The position numbers and the translations under genes are program-made. 64,000 bases of DNA from Halorhabdus rudnickae. Its GTDB lineage: Archaea; Halobacteriota; Halobacteria; Halobacteriales; Haloarculaceae. Below are positions 18,010 through 38,299 of the stretch, piece by piece; within the stretch, counting starts at the first letter, position 1, and every line of letters begins with the position of its first letter. The stretch spans positions 496,001 to 560,000 of the forward strand of contig NZ_CAAHFB010000001.1 of NCBI RefSeq assembly GCF_900880625.1. Direction: 5' to 3'. The notes under the pieces are model-generated. The model saw only the letters and a program-made list of their open reading frames with translations. It was not told where the DNA came from and ran no database searches.

Positions 18010-18594
18010 ATGTCAGATTCCGACCCCCCAGTCGTCCTCATCGTCGAAGACGAACCGGACGTCGCCGAGACGTACAATCTCTGGCTGCAGGACGAGTACG
18101 AGGTTCGCATGGCCGGTAACGGGAGTGATGCCCTGGACTTGCTGGACGGCGATGTCGATGTCGTATTGCTCGATCGGATGATGCCTGGGCTCTCGGGCGA
18201 TGAAGTCCTCGACAGAATCCGCGATGGCGACAGCGACTGCCGGGTTGCGATGGTGACGGCCGTCGAACCGGACTTCGATATCCTGGAGATGGGTTTTGAC
18301 TCGTATCTCACCAAACCCATCAGGAGCCAGGAACTCCACGAGACGGTCTCGAACCTGCTCGAACGCTCGACGTACGACGACCTCTTACAGCAGTATTACT
18401 CTCTGGTGGAGAAACAGGCGACGCTGGAAGCCACGAAGAATAGCGCCGAACTCGCAGAGAGCGACGAGTACGGGCAACTCTCCGAGCGCGTCGAGGAACT
18501 CAAAGGAGAACTCTCTGGCACGCTCGGCGGCGTCGAGAACGACGAAGATTTCATCGCCACATTGCGGGAGTTGAGCAATGGCGACGAACACTGA
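18010..18594 (+). CDS. Response regulator with HalX output domain
   Basis: 194-aa protein. REC domain at residues 8-120 with acidic pocket (IVEDEPD), phospho-acceptor Asp in VVLLDRMMPG, conserved Thr (AMVTAVEP) and Lys (YLTKPI). The C-terminal HalX domain (about 125-192) is a helical coiled segment restricted to haloarchaeal regulators. HalX is thought to be an output module; its target is not established. Followed within 13 nt (or overlapped) by a KaiC-like ATPase, implying a joint output. No kinase adjacent. Confidence 0.92.
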   Translation: MSDSDPPVVLIVEDEPDVAETYNLWLQDEYEVRMAGNGSDALDLLDGDVDVVLLDRMMPGLSGDEVLDRIRDGDSDCRVAMVTAVEPDFDILEMGFDSYLTKPIRSQELHETVSNLLERSTYDDLLQQYYSLVEKQATLEATKNSAELAESDEYGQLSERVEELKGELSGTLGGVENDEDFIATLRELSNGDEH

Positions 18595-18607
18595 CCGATC
18601 TGGGACC

Positions 18608-19261
18608 ATGTACGATCTATCATCAGTACTCGACGTCGACGCCCTCGAATCCGTCCGACCGGGAACGAGCATCCTGATCTCCGGGCCAGCCATGACCGGA
18701 AAGCAAGGGCTGGTCTACGACATTCTCGCAGACGGCGCTGGCGCGGGCGAGGGGACGGTTATCCTCTCGACCGGGGATCGGGCCGGAACTGTCGTCGAGG
18801 AGTTCGACGGCCACGTGACCGCCGATTCGTTCCCGCTTGCGGTTATCGACTGTGCCGGGGACGGAACCGCCAGCGATCCGGAAGACAGCGACATCTTCGT
18901 GTACCACGCGTCCTCTCCCGGCGACCTGACCGGCATCGGCATCGGGATCACCGAGGCCCTCGAGACGCTCCACGACCGGGGCGTCGAACGGGGTCGTCTC
19001 TCGCTGTCGTCGCTGTCGACGATGTTGACCTACACCGACCGCAAGACGGTCTTCAAGCTGTGTCACGTCCTGTCTTCACGGCTGGACGCCGCCGATTACC
19101 TCGGCCTGTTCACGATCGACGCCAGCGCGCACGACGAGCAGACGCTGCAAGTCATCAAACAGGCCTTCGATGGCATGATCGAGATCCGCGAACGTGAGGG
19201 CGTCAGGGAAGCACGCGTCCGCGGACTCACGTCCGAACCCAGCGAGTGGCTGGAACTATAA
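18608..19261 (+). CDS. RecA-superfamily KaiC-like ATPase domain protein
   Basis: 217 aa from ATG 18608 (MYDLSSVLDVDALESV); an ATG at 18578 would add 10 residues and overlap the HalX gene by 17 nt. Walker A is degenerate at the end (ISGPAMTGKQGLV, Gln where Ser/Thr is usual). A Walker-B-like segment is PLAVIDCAG, and RLSLSSLSTMLTYTDRKTVF resembles the KaiC sensor region. Halobacterial proteins of this type occur beside two-component genes and probably transmit the signal. ATP hydrolysis is uncertain because of the Walker A change. Confidence 0.78.
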   Translation: MYDLSSVLDVDALESVRPGTSILISGPAMTGKQGLVYDILADGAGAGEGTVILSTGDRAGTVVEEFDGHVTADSFPLAVIDCAGDGTASDPEDSDIFVYHASSPGDLTGIGIGITEALETLHDRGVERGRLSLSSLSTMLTYTDRKTVFKLCHVLSSRLDAADYLGLFTIDASAHDEQTLQVIKQAFDGMIEIREREGVREARVRGLTSEPSEWLEL

Positions 19262-19935: not shown

Positions 19936-22515
19936 CTATTCCGCCCGTCGCTGTAACTCCGCCAGGGCGTTCAACGCCTCGATCGGGGTCATCTCAGCGA
20001 CGTTTAGCGAACGGAGCTCGGCGGCGAGTCCGTCGTCCGGGTTGTCTTCGCTTTCGCGCCTCGATCCCGACGGTTCTGCGTGCTGTCCGTCCGACGCCTC
20101 TCCGTTCCGGTCGTCGAGCAATTCCCGCGAGCGCTCGACGACCGGATCGGGGACACCAGCGACGCCGGCCACTTCGACGCCATACGAGGCCGCTGCCGCT
20201 CCGGGTGCGATCTCGTAGGGGAAGGACACGTCGCTCCCTTCGCGGTCCGTCCGGAAATGGAGGTTCTGCGCGCCATCGAGGTCCGCTGCTAGGTCCGTCA
20301 GTTCGTGGTGATGAGTGGCAAAGAGCGTCGTCGCGCCGACCTCGTCGTGAACGAATTCCGTGGCGGCGCGGGCGATCGCCAACCCGTCAGTCGTGCTCGT
20401 CCCGCGGCCGACCTCGTCGAGCAGCACGAGCGAATCGTCGGTCGCGCTTTCAAGGATTGTGGCGAGTTCGCTCATCTCGACCATGAACGTCGAGCGCCCA
20501 CCGGCAATGTCGTCGCTCGCGCCGACACGGGTGAACACGCGATCGACGATCCGTAGATCGGCCGATTGTGCTGGCACGAAACTCCCGGCCTGGGCGAGGA
20601 TTGCGATCAGCGCAACCTGGCGCATGTACGTCGACTTCCCGCTCATGTTCGGCCCGGTGATCACTGCGAGGAAGGTATCCTCGTCGAGGTGGGTGTCGTT
20701 CGGGACGAAGGCGTCCCGTGTGCGCTCGACGACTGGGTGACGGCCACCGTCGACGTGGATTCCCTTCCCGTCGAAGCTGGGGCGACAGTAATCCCGCTCG
20801 GCCGCGACTGTCCCAAACGAGACCAGGGCGTCCAGTGTCGCCACGGCGTCGGCGACCGCCTGGATGCGCTCGGATTCGGCAGCGACGTCGTCGCGTACCT
20901 CCACGAACAGTTCGTACTCCAGGTCGTCAGCCCGCCCCTCGGCGCGGAGAATCTCGTCCTCGCGTTCCTTGAGTTCCGGCGTATAATAGCGCTCGGCGTT
21001 CTTCAGCGTCTGTCTGCGCTGGTAATCCTCGGGGACTCGATCGAGGTTCGCGTCGGTCACTTCGATGTAGTAACCGTGGACGGCGTTGTGTCCGACCTTC
21101 AAGGAGTCGATGCCGGTCCGTTCGCGCTCGCGCTCCTCCAGATCGGCGATCCACTCTTTGCCCTCGCGTTCGGTCGCGCGCAGCTCGTCCAGGTGCTCGT
21201 CGTACCCCTCGCTGACCACCCCGCCCTCGGTGATCTCCGTCGGCGGATCGGCCGCGATCGCGTCGTCGATCAGCCCACGAACGTCGTCCATTTCGTCGAG
21301 ACGATCGGAGAGATCGGCGAGCAACTGGGCGTCTACGCCGGACAGTTCCGCCCTGATCTCCGGGATCACGTCGAGCGTGTCCGAAAGCGAGCGGAGGTCG
21401 CGTGCGTCGGCACGCGACCGCGAGACGCGAGAGATGAGGCGTTCCAGGTCGTAAACGTCGGCAAGCAGTTCCTTGAGCCGCTCGCGGGTTTGCAGATCAG
21501 AGACGAGTTCTTCGACGGCCGCGTGGCGTGCTTCGATCCGGTCGCGATCGAGCAGCGGACGACGAAGCCATTCTGTCAGCCGCCGTCGCCCGAGCGCGCA
21601 GGCCGTCTCGTCGATCACGTCGACGAGCGTCAGGTCCGTGCCGCCGGTAACGCTCCGGCGCTCGAAGATTTCCAGGCTCTCTAAGGCGACCGTGTCCAAA
21701 ACCATGTACTCCCGGGGGTCATACCGCGTGAGGTGGTTGAGGTATTCCAGCCGGCCGTCCTGTCCACCGCGGGCGTATTCCGCGTAGGACAGCAACGCGC
21801 CGCAGGCTCGAACCTCGGCGTCACTCCCGAGCAGGCGGTCGGCTGGGCCGAAGTACGCGGCGACACGCTCGCCGGCCCGATCCGGGGAGAAGTATCGCCC
21901 ATCGACCGGACTGACCACGCAGTCGGCCCCGAAGAGGTTCGGCGCGTCCGGACCGACGATCCCCTCCGCGGGGGCGAAACGACCGAGTTCGTCCCGGATC
22001 GTACTCCGGTCGTCGGTGCTGGTCGCGTAGAAATCACCGGTCGAGACGTCGAGTACCGCGATAGCGAGACGCCCGTCGGCGGCGGCGAGCGCCGCGACGT
22101 AGTTGTTCTCGGCCCCGCCGAGCAATTCGTCCTCGGTGAGCGTCCCGGGCGTGATGATCCGCGTGACCGCCCGGTCGACGACGCCACTGACTTCGTCGGG
22201 ATCCTGGACCTGATCGGCGATGGCGACGCGATAGCCCGCATCCAGTAGTTTCTCGATGTAGGATTCAGCGTTGTCGATCGGAACACCGGTCATCGCGTAC
22301 GTGCCGGTCGAATCCTCGCGTTCGGTTAGCGTCACCTCACAGATCCGGGCGAGTACCTCTGCCCCCTCACAGAACGCCTTGTAGAAGTCACCCGACTGGA
22401 ACAGCACGAAGGCGTCGTCGTACTGCTCGGTCAACTCGACGTACTGGCTCAACATCGGGGTGAGGTCCCCGCGCCGCTCGACCATCTTTGCCGGCGGTCC
22501 CAGCGCCGCGTCCAT
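19936..22515 (-). CDS. mutS: DNA mismatch repair protein MutS (MutS1 paralogue A)
   Basis: 859 aa. Domain order: mismatch-binding domain I (about 15-130), connector, core/lever (to about 560), then ATPase: Walker [18 protein letters not shown]-like [10 protein letters not shown], Walker [14 protein letters not shown], and a His-rich [10 protein letters not shown]. ATPase and dimer regions are intact. The mismatch-reading Phe-X-Glu motif reads GDFYKAF, with Lys (codon AAG, 22378-22380, residue 46) in place of the invariant Glu; the paralogue at 31163 has GDFYEFF. That single change could alter mismatch sensing. An internal ATG at residue 11 is an alternative start. Neighbour: DUF5788 downstream. 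Confidence 0.95.
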
Positions 22516-31162: not shown

Positions 31163-33811
31163 ATGAGCGACGCGACGGGAATCGTCGGGGAATTTTTCTC
31201 CTTGCAGGGAGAGACCGACGCTGATCTCCTGGCGATGCAGGTTGGTGACTTCTACGAGTTCTTCGGCGAGGACGCCGAGACGGTGGCCGAGGAACTCGAT
31301 TTGAAAGTCTCCCAGAAGTCGAGCCACGGCTCCTCCTATCCGATGGCAGGTGTCCCGGTCGACGAACTCACACCCTACCTCAAGGGACTCGTCGAACGCG
31401 GTTACCGCGTGGCAGTCGCCGATCAACACGAAACCGAGAACGGGCACGCTCGCGCGATCGACCGGATCGTCACGCCGGGGACGCTTCTGGAGACGACCGA
31501 TGCAGACGCGCGCTACCTCACGGGGATCGTGGCGGGCGATGAAGAGTGGGGACTCGCTTTCGCCGACGTGACGACCGGACAGTTCTTCGTCACCAGCGTC
31601 GACGACAGATCGGCTGTCCTGAGCGAACTCTACCGATTCGACCCCGCCGAAGTGCTCCCGGGACCGACGGTCAGGACCGACGACGAGACGCTCGATCGAC
31701 TCCGCGATCGGACTGACGCCACCCTGTCTCTCCACACGACCGAGGACTTCGCGCCCGGACGGGCACGACATCGCCTGCGCGACCAGTTCGGTGCGGAGAC
31801 CATCGAGAGCGTCGGGATGGGCGACAGCGACACGACGATCGCCGCTGCGGGAGGCGTCCTCGCATACGTCGAAGAGACTGGTCAGGGCGTGCTCGCCTCG
31901 ATGACGCGACTCCAGCGGTACGGCGCGGGCGAACACGTCGAACTCGATGCGACGACACAACGCAACCTCGAACTCACGGAGACGATGCAGGGCGATCGCT
32001 CCGGGTCGCTGCTCGATACCATCGACCACACAGTCACGAGCGCCGGGACGCGGACGCTTCGTGCGTGGCTCCAGCGGCCCCGCCGATCGACGGCGGAACT
32101 GCACTCACGACAGGATGGCGTCGCCGCCCTCGCGTCGGCCGCGATGGCCCGCGAGCGCCTCCGGGAAGAGCTGAGCGACGCCTACGATCTTCAGCGACTC
32201 GCGAGCAAAGCCGCTTCGGGAAGTGCTGACGCACGTGACCTGCGGGCGGCCGCCGACACGCTCGCACGCTACGAATCGGTCCGAAACGTCGTCGCCGACG
32301 CGTCCGAACTCGCCGATTCACCGATCCTCGACCGGCTGGACGGACTCGACCGGTCCGCGATCGATGACCTCGCCAGGGAACTCGACGCGGCGGTCGTCGA
32401 GGATCCGCCGGGGACGATCACCGAGGGTGGGATCATCCGACGAGGCTACGACGAGGAACTGGACGACCTGGTCGAGCGCCACGAGAGTGCCCTGGAGTGG
32501 ATCGAGACGCTGCCCGACCGCGAGCAGCGCGAACACGGCATCACGCACCTCTCGGTCGACCGAAACAAAACAGACGGCTACTACATCCAGGTCGGCAACA
32601 GCGAGACAGAGAAGGTACCCGAGTACTACGAGAGCGTCAAGACGTTGAAAAACGCCGAACGCTACACGATCGACGAACTCGAGGAGCGCGAACGGGAGAT
32701 CCTCCGGCTGGAAGAACAGCGACACGACCTAGAACGAGAGCTGTTCGAGGCATTGCGCGATCGCGTTGCCCAGCGTGCCCAACTCCTGCAGGACGTCGGG
32801 AGCGTGCTGGCTGCAGTCGACGTTCTCGCAGCACTGGCGACCCACGCCGTCCGGAACGACTGGACGCGTCCGGAGCTGCTCGATTCGCGCGCCCTGGAGA
32901 TCGAGGCCGGCCGCCACCCTGTCGTCGAGGGGACGACCGAGTTCGTTCCCAACGACCTCTACATGGACGAGGACCGCCGGTTCCTGATCGTCACCGGGCC
33001 GAACATGAGCGGGAAGTCGACGTACATGCGACAGGCCGCCCTGATCGTCCTGCTGACCCAGATCGGGAGTTTCGTCCCCGCGCGCTCGGCCCGGGTCGGG
33101 CTTGTCGACGGCATCTACACCCGTGTCGGTGCCCTGGACGAACTCGCTCAAGGCCGCTCGACGTTCATGGTCGAGATGCAGGAGTTGTCGAACATCCTTC
33201 ACTCCGCGACCGGAGACTCGCTGGTCATCCTCGACGAAGTGGGGCGTGGAACCGCCACTTTCGATGGCATCTCCATCGCCTGGGCAGCCACCGAGTACCT
33301 CCACAACGAGGTACGGGCCAAGACCCTGTTTGCGACGCACTACCACGAACTAACGAACCTGGCCGAGCACTTGCCCCGCGTCGAAAACGTCCACGTCGCT
33401 GCCGACGAGAGCGATGGCGACGTCACGTTCCTGCGTACCGTCCGTGAGGGCGCGACCGATCGGTCCTATGGTATCCACGTCGCCGATCTGGCGGGCGTTC
33501 CCGATCCGGTGGTCGATCGCTCGCGGGACGTACTCGATCGACTGCGCGAGGAGAAAGCCATCGAGGCCAAAGGCGGCTCCGGCGGGACGACTCAGGCCGT
33601 CTTCGACCTCTCAGACGGTGCGTTCACCGCCGGTGACGGGGCGAGTGCGGACGGCAGCGGGGATGAGATGCGAGACAGAATCGCGGATCGTTTCGGCGAC
33701 GATGCGGAGGGCGTCCTCGAGGAACTGGCCGCCCTGGATGTCAATGAGACGCCACCGGTCGAGTTGATGGCCCGCGTTCAGGAATTGCAGGACGAGCTCG
33801 ACGAGGGCTGA
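31163..33811 (+). CDS. mutS: DNA mismatch repair protein MutS (MutS1 paralogue B)
   Basis: 882 aa. Domain I has the intact mismatch-reading motif MQVGDFYEFF (F30, E32). Connector, lever and clamp regions precede an intact ATPase: [56 protein letters not shown]-terminal tail holds TQAVFDLSDGAF, which resembles a sliding-clamp binding motif (inference), and ends in a helix-rich tip. With mutL nearby this is the better candidate for the main mismatch sensor. Confidence 0.95.
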   Translation: MSDATGIVGEFFSLQGETDADLLAMQVGDFYEFFGEDAETVAEELDLKVSQKSSHGSSYPMAGVPVDELTPYLKGLVERGYRVAVADQHETENGHARAIDRIVTPGTLLETTDADARYLTGIVAGDEEWGLAFADVTTGQFFVTSVDDRSAVLSELYRFDPAEVLPGPTVRTDDETLDRLRDRTDATLSLHTTEDFAPGRARHRLRDQFGAETIESVGMGDSDTTIAAAGGVLAYVEETGQGVLASMTRLQRYGAGEHVELDATTQRNLELTETMQGDRSGSLLDTIDHTVTSAGTRTLRAWLQRPRRSTAELHSRQDGVAALASAAMARERLREELSDAYDLQRLASKAASGSADARDLRAAADTLARYESVRNVVADASELADSPILDRLDGLDRSAIDDLARELDAAVVEDPPGTITEGGIIRRGYDEELDDLVERHESALEWIETLPDREQREHGITHLSVDRNKTDGYYIQVGNSETEKVPEYYESVKTLKNAERYTIDELEEREREILRLEEQRHDLERELFEALRDRVAQRAQLLQDVGSVLAAVDVLAALATHAVRNDWTRPELLDSRALEIEAGRHPVVEGTTEFVPNDLYMDEDRRFLIVTGPNMSGKSTYMRQAALIVLLTQIGSFVPARSARVGLVDGIYTRVGALDELAQGRSTFMVEMQELSNILHSATGDSLVILDEVGRGTATFDGISIAWAATEYLHNEVRAKTLFATHYHELTNLAEHLPRVENVHVAADESDGDVTFLRTVREGATDRSYGIHVADLAGVPDPVVDRSRDVLDRLREEKAIEAKGGSGGTTQAVFDLSDGAFTAGDGASADGSGDEMRDRIADRFGDDAEGVLEELAALDVNETPPVELMARVQELQDELDEG

Positions 33812-36053: not shown

Positions 36054-36175
36054 GTGCCTCGATAGGACGGGACGTGCCGTAACTGTTTGGCGGCGTGAGA
36101 CAGCTCCCGGATCGACCAGTGTCGGCGAGCGGGGGACTGAAGTCGGTGCCGTCACAATCGGGAATCGACACCTGC

Positions 36176-38299
36176 ATGACAGAGCCGACGGAGATCAGGG
36201 AACTCGACGAGGCGACTGTCGAGCGTATCGCCGCGGGGGAAGTCGTCGAGCGCCCCGCATCGGTCGTCAAGGAGCTCGTCGAGAACAGCCTCGACGCCGG
36301 GGCCTCCCGCGTCCGCGTGGCCGTCGAGGCCGGCGGCACCGACGGGATCCGCGTCAGCGACGACGGCGTCGGGATGACCGAATCCCAGGCCAGGACAGCC
36401 GTCCGCGAGCACACGACTAGCAAGATCAGCGACATCGACGACCTGGAATCAGGGGTCGGGACGCTGGGGTTCCGTGGCGAGGCGCTACACGCCATCGGTG
36501 CCGTTTCCCGGTTGACGATCACGACGCGGCCCCGTGGCGGCGATCGCGGAACCCGCCTGCGCGTCGAGGGTGGCGAGGTCACGGCCGTCGAGTCTGCCGG
36601 CTGTCCCGAAGGGACGACCGTCGACGTCGACGATCTCTTCTACAACGTCCCTGCCCGCCGGAAGTACCTCAGCCGGGACGCCACCGAATTCGATCACGTC
36701 AGTTCAGTCGTGACCAAGTACGCCCTGGCCAATCCGGACGTGGCCGTCGAACTCGAACACGACGGCCGGGAGACCTTCGCCACGAGTGGCCAGGGATCGC
36801 TCCAGGAGACTGTTATGGCAGTGTACGGTCGGGAAGTCGCCGAGTCGATGATCGACGTCGAGACGGAGTCACTCCCCGACGGCCCACTCACTGACGTCTC
36901 CGGCCTCGTCAGTCACCCCGAGACGAACCGCGCCGGCCGGGAGTATCTCTCGACGTTCGTCAATGGCCGGTACGTCCGCTCGGGAGCGGCCCGTGACGCC
37001 GTCCTCGCGGCATACGACAACCAACTCGCCGCCGATCGCTATCCGTTCGCGGTCATACACCTCGCGGTACCGGCCGACACTGTCGACGTGAACGTCCATC
37101 CCCGGAAGATGGAGGTGCGATGGACCGAACCGGAAGCCCTCGAGCGACAGATCCGAAGCGCCATCGAGGACGCTCTCCGGGAAGAAGGGATCCTTCGCTC
37201 GACGGCACCACGCGGGCGCAGCGCCCCCGAGCAAACGACGATCGAACCGTCGTCGACGACCGACACGACGGAAGCGTTCCGGACTGGCGAGACCGACCAA
37301 GTGGCGACCGAGGACGTGACATCTGACGACATGACGGCCGAAGACGTGACGGTTGAGGAAATACCAGGCGAGGAGACCACACCCGACGATGTCGAGGCCG
37401 GTGGCAGTTCGTCGGACAACTTTGAGCAGACCCGGTCAAGGCCGCCGTCGCAGTCCGACCGGACGCCATCCGCTGGTTCGATTTCACGTGATGAATCGAC
37501 ACAGTCGCCGACGAAGTCGGATGTACGAGACGAATCAGCACAGTCATCGACGGGATCGGATTCACCGGACGACTCAACACACTCGGCGAAGGGGTCGACG
37601 GAGCAGGATTCGTCTCGTTCGCGGTCGGCCACGGGCCAGGACCCCGATACGCAAACGACCCTGCACGGCAACGACGCGATGCCGACGACGGAATACGATG
37701 CCATTCCCGACCTCCGCATCCTGGGCCAGCTACACGATACGTATGTCGTCGCCGAAGCCGACGACGGGTTAGTCCTGATCGATCAACACGCTGCCGACGA
37801 ACGGATCAATTACGAGCGGCTCAAAGATCGGTTCGAGGGCGATACGACCACGCAAGTGCTGGCCGATCCGGTCGAACTCGAATTGACGTCGGGCGAGTCG
37901 GCGATCTTCGACGCCTACAGGGAAGCGCTTGCTCGGATCGGGTTTACCGCCGATCGTACCGGCGACCGAACCGTCCGCGTCTCGACCGTGCCTGCCTTCG
38001 TCGCAGAAGCAACGGGACCCAAACTCATCCGCGACGTCCTGGCCGATCTGGTCGCTGACGGACGAACGGCGGAAGAAACAGTCGAAGCCGTCGTCGACGA
38101 TCTGCTGGCAGACATGGCGTGTCACCCGTCGATCACGGGGAACACGTCGCTGACTGAAGGGTCGATCGTCGACTTGCTTTCCGCACTCGACGAGTGTGAG
38201 AACCCCTGGGCGTGTCCGCACGGTCGTCCCGTGCTGATACACGTCGATTCGGACGAGATAGACGACCGGTTCGAACGGGATTATCCCGGCGGTCACTAG
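36176..38299 (+). CDS. mutL: DNA mismatch repair protein MutL with endonuclease motifs
   Basis: 707 aa. GHKL ATPase N-terminal domain (1-330): ERIAAGEVVERPASVVKELV, NSLDAGASRVRV, DDGVGM and GFRGEALHAI. A long Ser/Thr/Asp/Glu-rich linker (about 360-515) precedes a C-terminal domain with the complete metal-dependent nicking site: DQHAADERINYE at residue 536 (DQHA-X2-E-X4-E), ACH near 648-650 and CPHGRP at 680-685. MutL of this class nicks DNA itself, as expected without MutH. QTTLHGND near the linker end resembles a clamp-binding box (inference). ATG 36176 is the family start. Confidence 0.96.
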   Translation: MTEPTEIRELDEATVERIAAGEVVERPASVVKELVENSLDAGASRVRVAVEAGGTDGIRVSDDGVGMTESQARTAVREHTTSKISDIDDLESGVGTLGFRGEALHAIGAVSRLTITTRPRGGDRGTRLRVEGGEVTAVESAGCPEGTTVDVDDLFYNVPARRKYLSRDATEFDHVSSVVTKYALANPDVAVELEHDGRETFATSGQGSLQETVMAVYGREVAESMIDVETESLPDGPLTDVSGLVSHPETNRAGREYLSTFVNGRYVRSGAARDAVLAAYDNQLAADRYPFAVIHLAVPADTVDVNVHPRKMEVRWTEPEALERQIRSAIEDALREEGILRSTAPRGRSAPEQTTIEPSSTTDTTEAFRTGETDQVATEDVTSDDMTAEDVTVEEIPGEETTPDDVEAGGSSSDNFEQTRSRPPSQSDRTPSAGSISRDESTQSPTKSDVRDESAQSSTGSDSPDDSTHSAKGSTEQDSSRSRSATGQDPDTQTTLHGNDAMPTTEYDAIPDLRILGQLHDTYVVAEADDGLVLIDQHAADERINYERLKDRFEGDTTTQVLADPVELELTSGESAIFDAYREALARIGFTADRTGDRTVRVSTVPAFVAEATGPKLIRDVLADLVADGRTAEETVEAVVDDLLADMACHPSITGNTSLTEGSIVDLLSALDECENPWACPHGRPVLIHVDSDEIDDRFERDYPGGH

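Follow-up and report, generated by a model that had tools for sequence, protein, structure and literature searches.

A recurrent lysine at the mismatch-reading position of haloarchaeal MutS1A probably marks a retuned rather than a broken MutS copy

Few residues of mismatch repair are as conserved as the glutamate at position 38 of Escherichia coli MutS. Phe36 of the same Phe-X-Glu motif stacks on the mismatched base and Glu38 hydrogen-bonds thymine N3 or purine N7; the E. coli E38Q mutant is described as having lost discrimination against homoduplex (PMC3848065). Another mismatch-repair enzyme of haloarchaea, NucS (EndoMS), corrects transitions and not indels (PMC8228993). Deletion of mutS or mutL genes did not raise the mutation rate of Halobacterium salinarum, loss of mutS1A included (PMC2816208). 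For Haloferax volcanii, deletion of the canonical mutSL reportedly raises it (unpublished, mentioned in PMC7776575), and gene conversion needs mutS1b, not mutS1a (PMC11276520).

The window, i.e. the whole stretch of 64,000 nucleotides analysed here, belongs to a haloarchaeal genome of 3.36 Mb (G000). The family of this genome (f1) is probably Haloarculaceae, as a protein from a metagenome-assembled Halovenus genome (L034) clusters in the tree with an f1 genome. The window carries the following mutS1 features:

19936-22515, minus strand: mutS1A, a MutS1 with domains I to V (859-aa ORF; identified by Pfam, closest solved folds are MutS)
22135-22467, minus strand: mismatch-binding domain I of MutS1A (residues 17-127; Pfam MutS_I 19-130; pLDDT about 72-92 by block)
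22378-22380, minus strand: codon 46 of mutS1A, AAG (ctt on the plus strand), Lys at the E. coli Glu38 position, without variation across the genus (7/7 species)
31163-33811, plus strand: mutS1B, the canonical paralogue, 882 aa, with Phe30-Tyr31-Glu32 (Glu codon 31256-31258)

Domains I to V of MutS1A come in order (PF01624, PF05188, PF05192, PF05190 and PF00488, all above the Pfam cut-offs); MutS1B, about 45% identical to MutS1A over most of its length, likewise has all five. The AlphaFold2 model of MutS1A (mean pLDDT 84.8) found MutS as its best Foldseek matches, with TM values of 0.81-0.86 for the best-ranked chains, and these matches comprise E. coli and Taq MutS together with the E38T, E38Q and E38A mutant structures. 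Convergent with the gene lies a DUF7504 KaiC-like protein gene (18578-19261, plus strand).

Alignment to solved MutS chains placed Phe44 on Phe36 and Lys46 on E. coli Glu38 and on the equivalent Glu of Thermus aquaticus, so that the Phe-X-Glu motif is incomplete in this protein: its Phe is retained and its Glu is replaced. The preliminary description, which had reported a Lys at the reading Glu (AAG at 22378-22380, i.e. residue 46), a GDFYEFF paralogue at 31163 and an otherwise intact, non-decaying gene, was borne out on the three points, the second by the translation of 31163-33811 (plus strand) and the third by the five domains, the conserved sites and a low domain I dN/dS (see below). When sites at least 95% conserved among Glu46 MutS1A proteins were compared, the only genus-wide departures were V41S, E46K and H767Y, and the Walker/ATPase and clamp residues were conserved. 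The product of mutS1A is a MutS1 by architecture, fold and tree, which departs from the family at one defining motif residue.

The distribution of residue 46 was determined on 97 aligned haloarchaeal MutS1A proteins, which have Glu (75), Lys (20) or Gln (2). Lys46 is present in all seven species of the window's genus (g1), the proteins of the other six being 81-87% identical to the window's, and Glu is found in the sister genus g3. A search of 391 genomes of the class for the pattern GDFYKxF returned 34 genomes; the matches in G100, G175, G216 and G232 were discarded as short unrelated ORFs, and the 30 others are MutS1A from six genera: seven genomes from g1, and 23 from family f4, where every sampled genome (23/23) of genera g45, g51, g58, g71 and g74 has Lys46. 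Outside these two groups, Lys46 also occurs in a metagenome-assembled genome (MAG) of genus g24 (G029). In that MAG the first 41 or so codons of the gene (L020) lie in another frame, by assembly error or by a real frameshift. The two Gln proteins are from genus g65 (L165 and L168, in G157 and G104), with GDFYQTY at the motif and the changes V41N and F48Y. Phe44 and Tyr45 are invariant in all Lys MutS1A proteins. Among bacterial and other MutS with a readable motif, 75/76 have GDFYE, and the lone exception may be a false match of the search expression. In relatives beyond the class, no Lys turned up in a phylum-wide search, whose pattern was so strict that it missed the window's own MutS1A.

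Lys46 is therefore lineage-wide, as the haloarchaeal alignment suggested by the preliminary description could establish, and the 'private polymorphism' evoked there is refuted, since Lys is fixed throughout the genus and arose independently in another family. That GAG is one base away from AAG, the one point in favour of a sequencing error or a strain-specific variant, is true and uninformative because the substitution is old and fixed. As the AAG codon is shared by all seven members of the genus, whose genomes were assembled separately, and by five further genera, the odds of an error or a strain polymorphism are negligible.

The origins of Lys46 were traced on a maximum-likelihood tree (LG+G4) of the 97 MutS1A and 12 MutS1B proteins. 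In it, g3 is the neighbour of the window's genus (UFBoot 100); within f4, the genera with Lys form one clade (support 99). Constraining the tree to unite the two cost 363 lnL units (p-AU about 1e-39, a rough value obtained from 2000 replicates only), which indicates at least two origins, and perhaps three. Domain I of the g1 proteins is closest by identity to that of the sister genus; together, the constrained tree and the domain I identities rule out a single origin or a between-family transfer for g1 and f4. Lys46 thus arose at least twice. A third origin, in the frameshifted MAG, is probable; G029 and g1 came out as a pair at 0.79 in a tree of domain I only, and the independence of G029 may therefore be incomplete.

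Residue 46 did not change alone. Three other features of the window's mutS1A belong to the remodelled reading site, which comprises V41S, K/Q to E65, P74A and A76T besides Lys46:

22393-22395, minus strand: Ser41 (Val in 74/75 Glu46 relatives), a genus-specific co-change
22321-22323, minus strand: Glu65, at E. coli Lys57, on a neighbouring strand of the reading sheet
22285-22296, minus strand: Ala74-Met75-Thr76-Gly77, at the usual Pro-Met-Ala-Gly (E. coli 67-70)

Each of the 181 branches was screened for sites that every member of the clade has changed and that, among Glu46 MutS1A proteins outside it, are conserved at 97% or more. At least two such shared changes within residues 36-79 were seen on internal branches of Lys or Gln lineages only. 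On the stem of the f4 Lys clade there are six changes: one in the clamp (S471N/T) and five (Q40R, E46K, L63M/K/R, T64I and M75A) in a zone with 23 of the 258 conserved sites (P 2e-5; with residue 46 left out, 2e-4). For g1, the near-invariant reading-site changes were only V41S and E46K, and clustering was weak (P 0.16 without residue 46); those of g65 (V41N, E46Q, F48Y) were not significant alone (P 0.09 without residue 46). Residue 471 of the clamp domain, a Ser in the 75 Glu46 proteins, is Asn or Thr in the f4 Lys genera and Asn in the G029 protein, and may have changed along with Lys46 despite the distance.

Glu65 deserves separate consideration, as the acid may simply have moved: a charge swap from Glu46-Lys65 to Lys46-Glu65 would preserve canonical reading. 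Glu65 is present in 19/20 Lys46 proteins, from two independent clades, versus 5/77 Glu46 proteins. The proteins so counted are related to one another; counted as lineages, Glu65 is found in two of the three Lys origins and in two Glu lineages. In the AlphaFold2 model, three successive strands of domain I carry residues 46, 65 and 74-76, which speaks for such a swap. Against it, the G029 Lys46 protein has Thr65, Glu65 coexists with Glu46 in g20 and in G027, so that a strict Lys46-Glu65 coupling is rejected, and Q40R, T64I and M75A are left unexplained by a charge swap alone. Overall, a relocated acid appears unlikely. The g20 proteins (L179, L182, L208 and L210) read LTERSDSTG versus LT[K/Q]REDSTG with Glu46 kept, i.e. 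they have an acid at 65 without the Lys.

Selection on the gene was assessed by Nei-Gojobori dN/dS. The domain I values, rough at dS near 0.5, were 0.02-0.09 in seven Lys-lineage pairs (0.02-0.07 within g1) and 0.02-0.15 in eight Glu pairs; the rest of the protein gave 0.10-0.31, domain I being always lower, in the Lys and Glu classes alike. Given this low domain I dN/dS and the intact Phe wedge, fold and ATPase, decay of MutS1A is unlikely, and dN/dS together with the conserved sites rules out a pseudogene. Another form of loss is conceivable, in which mismatch recognition was given up as NucS and MutS1B suffice, the protein being kept to bind structures such as recombination intermediates or G-quadruplexes. 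NucS was present in 23/24 genomes tested, among them all the Lys and Gln genomes tested; the mutS genes are dispensable for the H. salinarum mutation rate (PMC2816208), E. coli MutS F36A still binds G4 DNA (PMC3437207), and motif loss in ferns and Zygnema was read as compromised recognition (PMC12292046). We nevertheless regard it as improbable: the constraint on domain I matches that in the Glu relatives, Phe44 is kept throughout, one and the same residue evolved two or more times along with clustered co-changes, and the H. volcanii mutS1a mutant, unlike mutS1b, shows no gene-conversion defect (PMC11276520).

The partners of MutS1A bear on another possibility, namely that MutS1A and MutS1B form a heterodimer in which MutS1A, like MSH2 in its pair with MSH6, does no reading: with the mismatch read by MutS1B, the Glu of MutS1A would be dispensable, and its Lys would strengthen a backbone contact. 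Only one subunit reads in MutS dimers (PMC5074593). A MutS1B with an intact Phe-Tyr-Glu was present in all the Lys and Gln genomes checked, and in three genomes that lack MutS1B and have one MutS1A-type match each (G030, G032 and G044), that match keeps Glu; both findings agree with a heterodimer. On the other side, strong purifying selection acts on domain I, its Phe wedge included, whereas MSH2 has no motif, and a separate mutL is kept beside mutS1A in the f4 Lys genomes. We consider such a heterodimer rather unlikely. MutS1B also kept its Pro-Met-Ala-Gly in nearly all genomes checked. The window contains the genome's only mutL, near mutS1B and not adjoining mutS1A:

36095-38299, plus strand: mutL (likely Met start near 36176), with a DQHA-type (DQHAADERINYE) endonuclease-type motif

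Most genomes of the window's family have one mutL, whatever their residue 46. All tested f4 genomes have a second MutL beside MutS1A, be it with Lys or Glu, which rules out mutL loss as the cause of Lys46 in f4. In several other haloarchaeal genera, not the window's, nucS is close to mutS1A and convergent with it, a neighbourhood where two mismatch-repair systems stand side by side:

G007, C4:444528-444851 (L013 region): nucS, within about 100 bases of mutS1A
G018, C1:2011419-2011745: nucS, within about 100 bases of mutS1A
G010, C21:41558-41887: nucS near mutS1A
G029, C28:45089-45436: nucS near mutS1A

Since the Lys swap arose at least twice and the protein is under strong selection, the Lys-bearing copy was probably retuned rather than broken. 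The explanation that we prefer, with a probability of about 0.5, is that MutS1A of the window's genus would be a working MutS1 ATPase clamp with a reprogrammed mismatch-reading site, standing beside canonical MutS1B and NucS. The Phe wedge would still stack on an unpaired or mispaired base, while the acidic reader would have become Lys and the neighbouring residues on adjacent strands would have been adjusted. In its presumed role, Glu is the acceptor of a hydrogen bond from thymine N3-H or, when protonated, a donor to purine N7, and it helps to reject normal pairs; Lys could only donate, and would attract DNA. With that acceptor gone and DNA attracted, a shift in the preferred substrate is predicted: one would expect a Lys46 MutS1A to bind duplexes more tightly and to have lost the preference for G:T and +T. 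Of the three options in the preliminary description (altered lesion specificity, a partner of MutS1B, lost recognition), the sequence evidence favours a new specificity over simple loss of recognition, and is compatible with a partner role. The new substrates would most plausibly be extrahelical loops and indels or purine-containing lesions; with ordinary mismatches taken by MutS1B (Phe-X-Glu) and transitions by NucS, loops or other NucS-refractory lesions would be a natural niche, and the new specificity may be for loops that NucS cannot correct. Such a division of labour would be loosely analogous to that of MSH3 versus MSH6.

Four observations weigh against a reprogrammed reader. The near-invariant reading-site changes of the window's own genus are just two, with weak clustering, and Glu65 is found in two Glu46 lineages as well. 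The E. coli E38A, E38Q and E38T crystals still hold a G:T mismatch, so that binding does not strictly require Glu; and H. salinarum without mutS1A lacks a mutation phenotype, so that any role of MutS1A may be subtle. More tentatively, haloarchaea may have repeatedly made one MutS1 paralogue a specialised reader by reversing the charge of a reading residue that is conserved almost universally, the prokaryotic counterpart of the split between MSH6 and MSH3, where one MutS1 would be free to specialise because NucS and MutS1B cover ordinary mismatches. A natural, recurrent and selected Lys is in any case a ready-made experiment on wedge insertion versus base reading in MutS. It bears on why haloarchaea keep two MutS1 despite the lack of a mutator effect of mutS deletion in Halobacterium, and Haloferax volcanii is a genetic system open to a direct test of the swap. 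A partial survey of the literature revealed no description of a conserved Lys at the Glu38 site, and our literature and structure searches found no E38K mutant of E. coli MutS.

How the protein compares with known systems can be stated as follows. It shares with canonical MutS1 of E. coli and T. aquaticus the five domains, the fold, the Walker region, the Phe wedge and a mutL located elsewhere in the genome, and differs from them by Glu38 to Lys, Lys57 to Glu and an altered Pro-Met-Ala-Gly loop. Haloarchaeal MutS1B is of the same subfamily, but keeps Phe-Tyr-Glu. MSH3 has basic residues at its reading site. As the insertion/deletion loop reader of MutS-beta, it resembles MutS1A in being without the Glu of Phe-X-Glu (PMC3848065, PMC5074593); unlike MutS1A, which keeps Phe44, it is also without the Phe and needs MSH2 as its heterodimer partner to work. 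MutS1A is not an MSH3, and no orthology is claimed. The E. coli E38A, E38Q and E38T laboratory mutants (structures 1WBB, 1WBD and 1WB9) are altered at the same residue but are uncompensated, E38Q being unable to tell mismatch from homoduplex. Fern and Zygnema MutS1 have naturally lost residues of the Phe36/Glu38 type (PMC12292046); there the loss was read as compromised recognition, whereas the haloarchaeal change is to one conserved, recurrent Lys under purifying selection.
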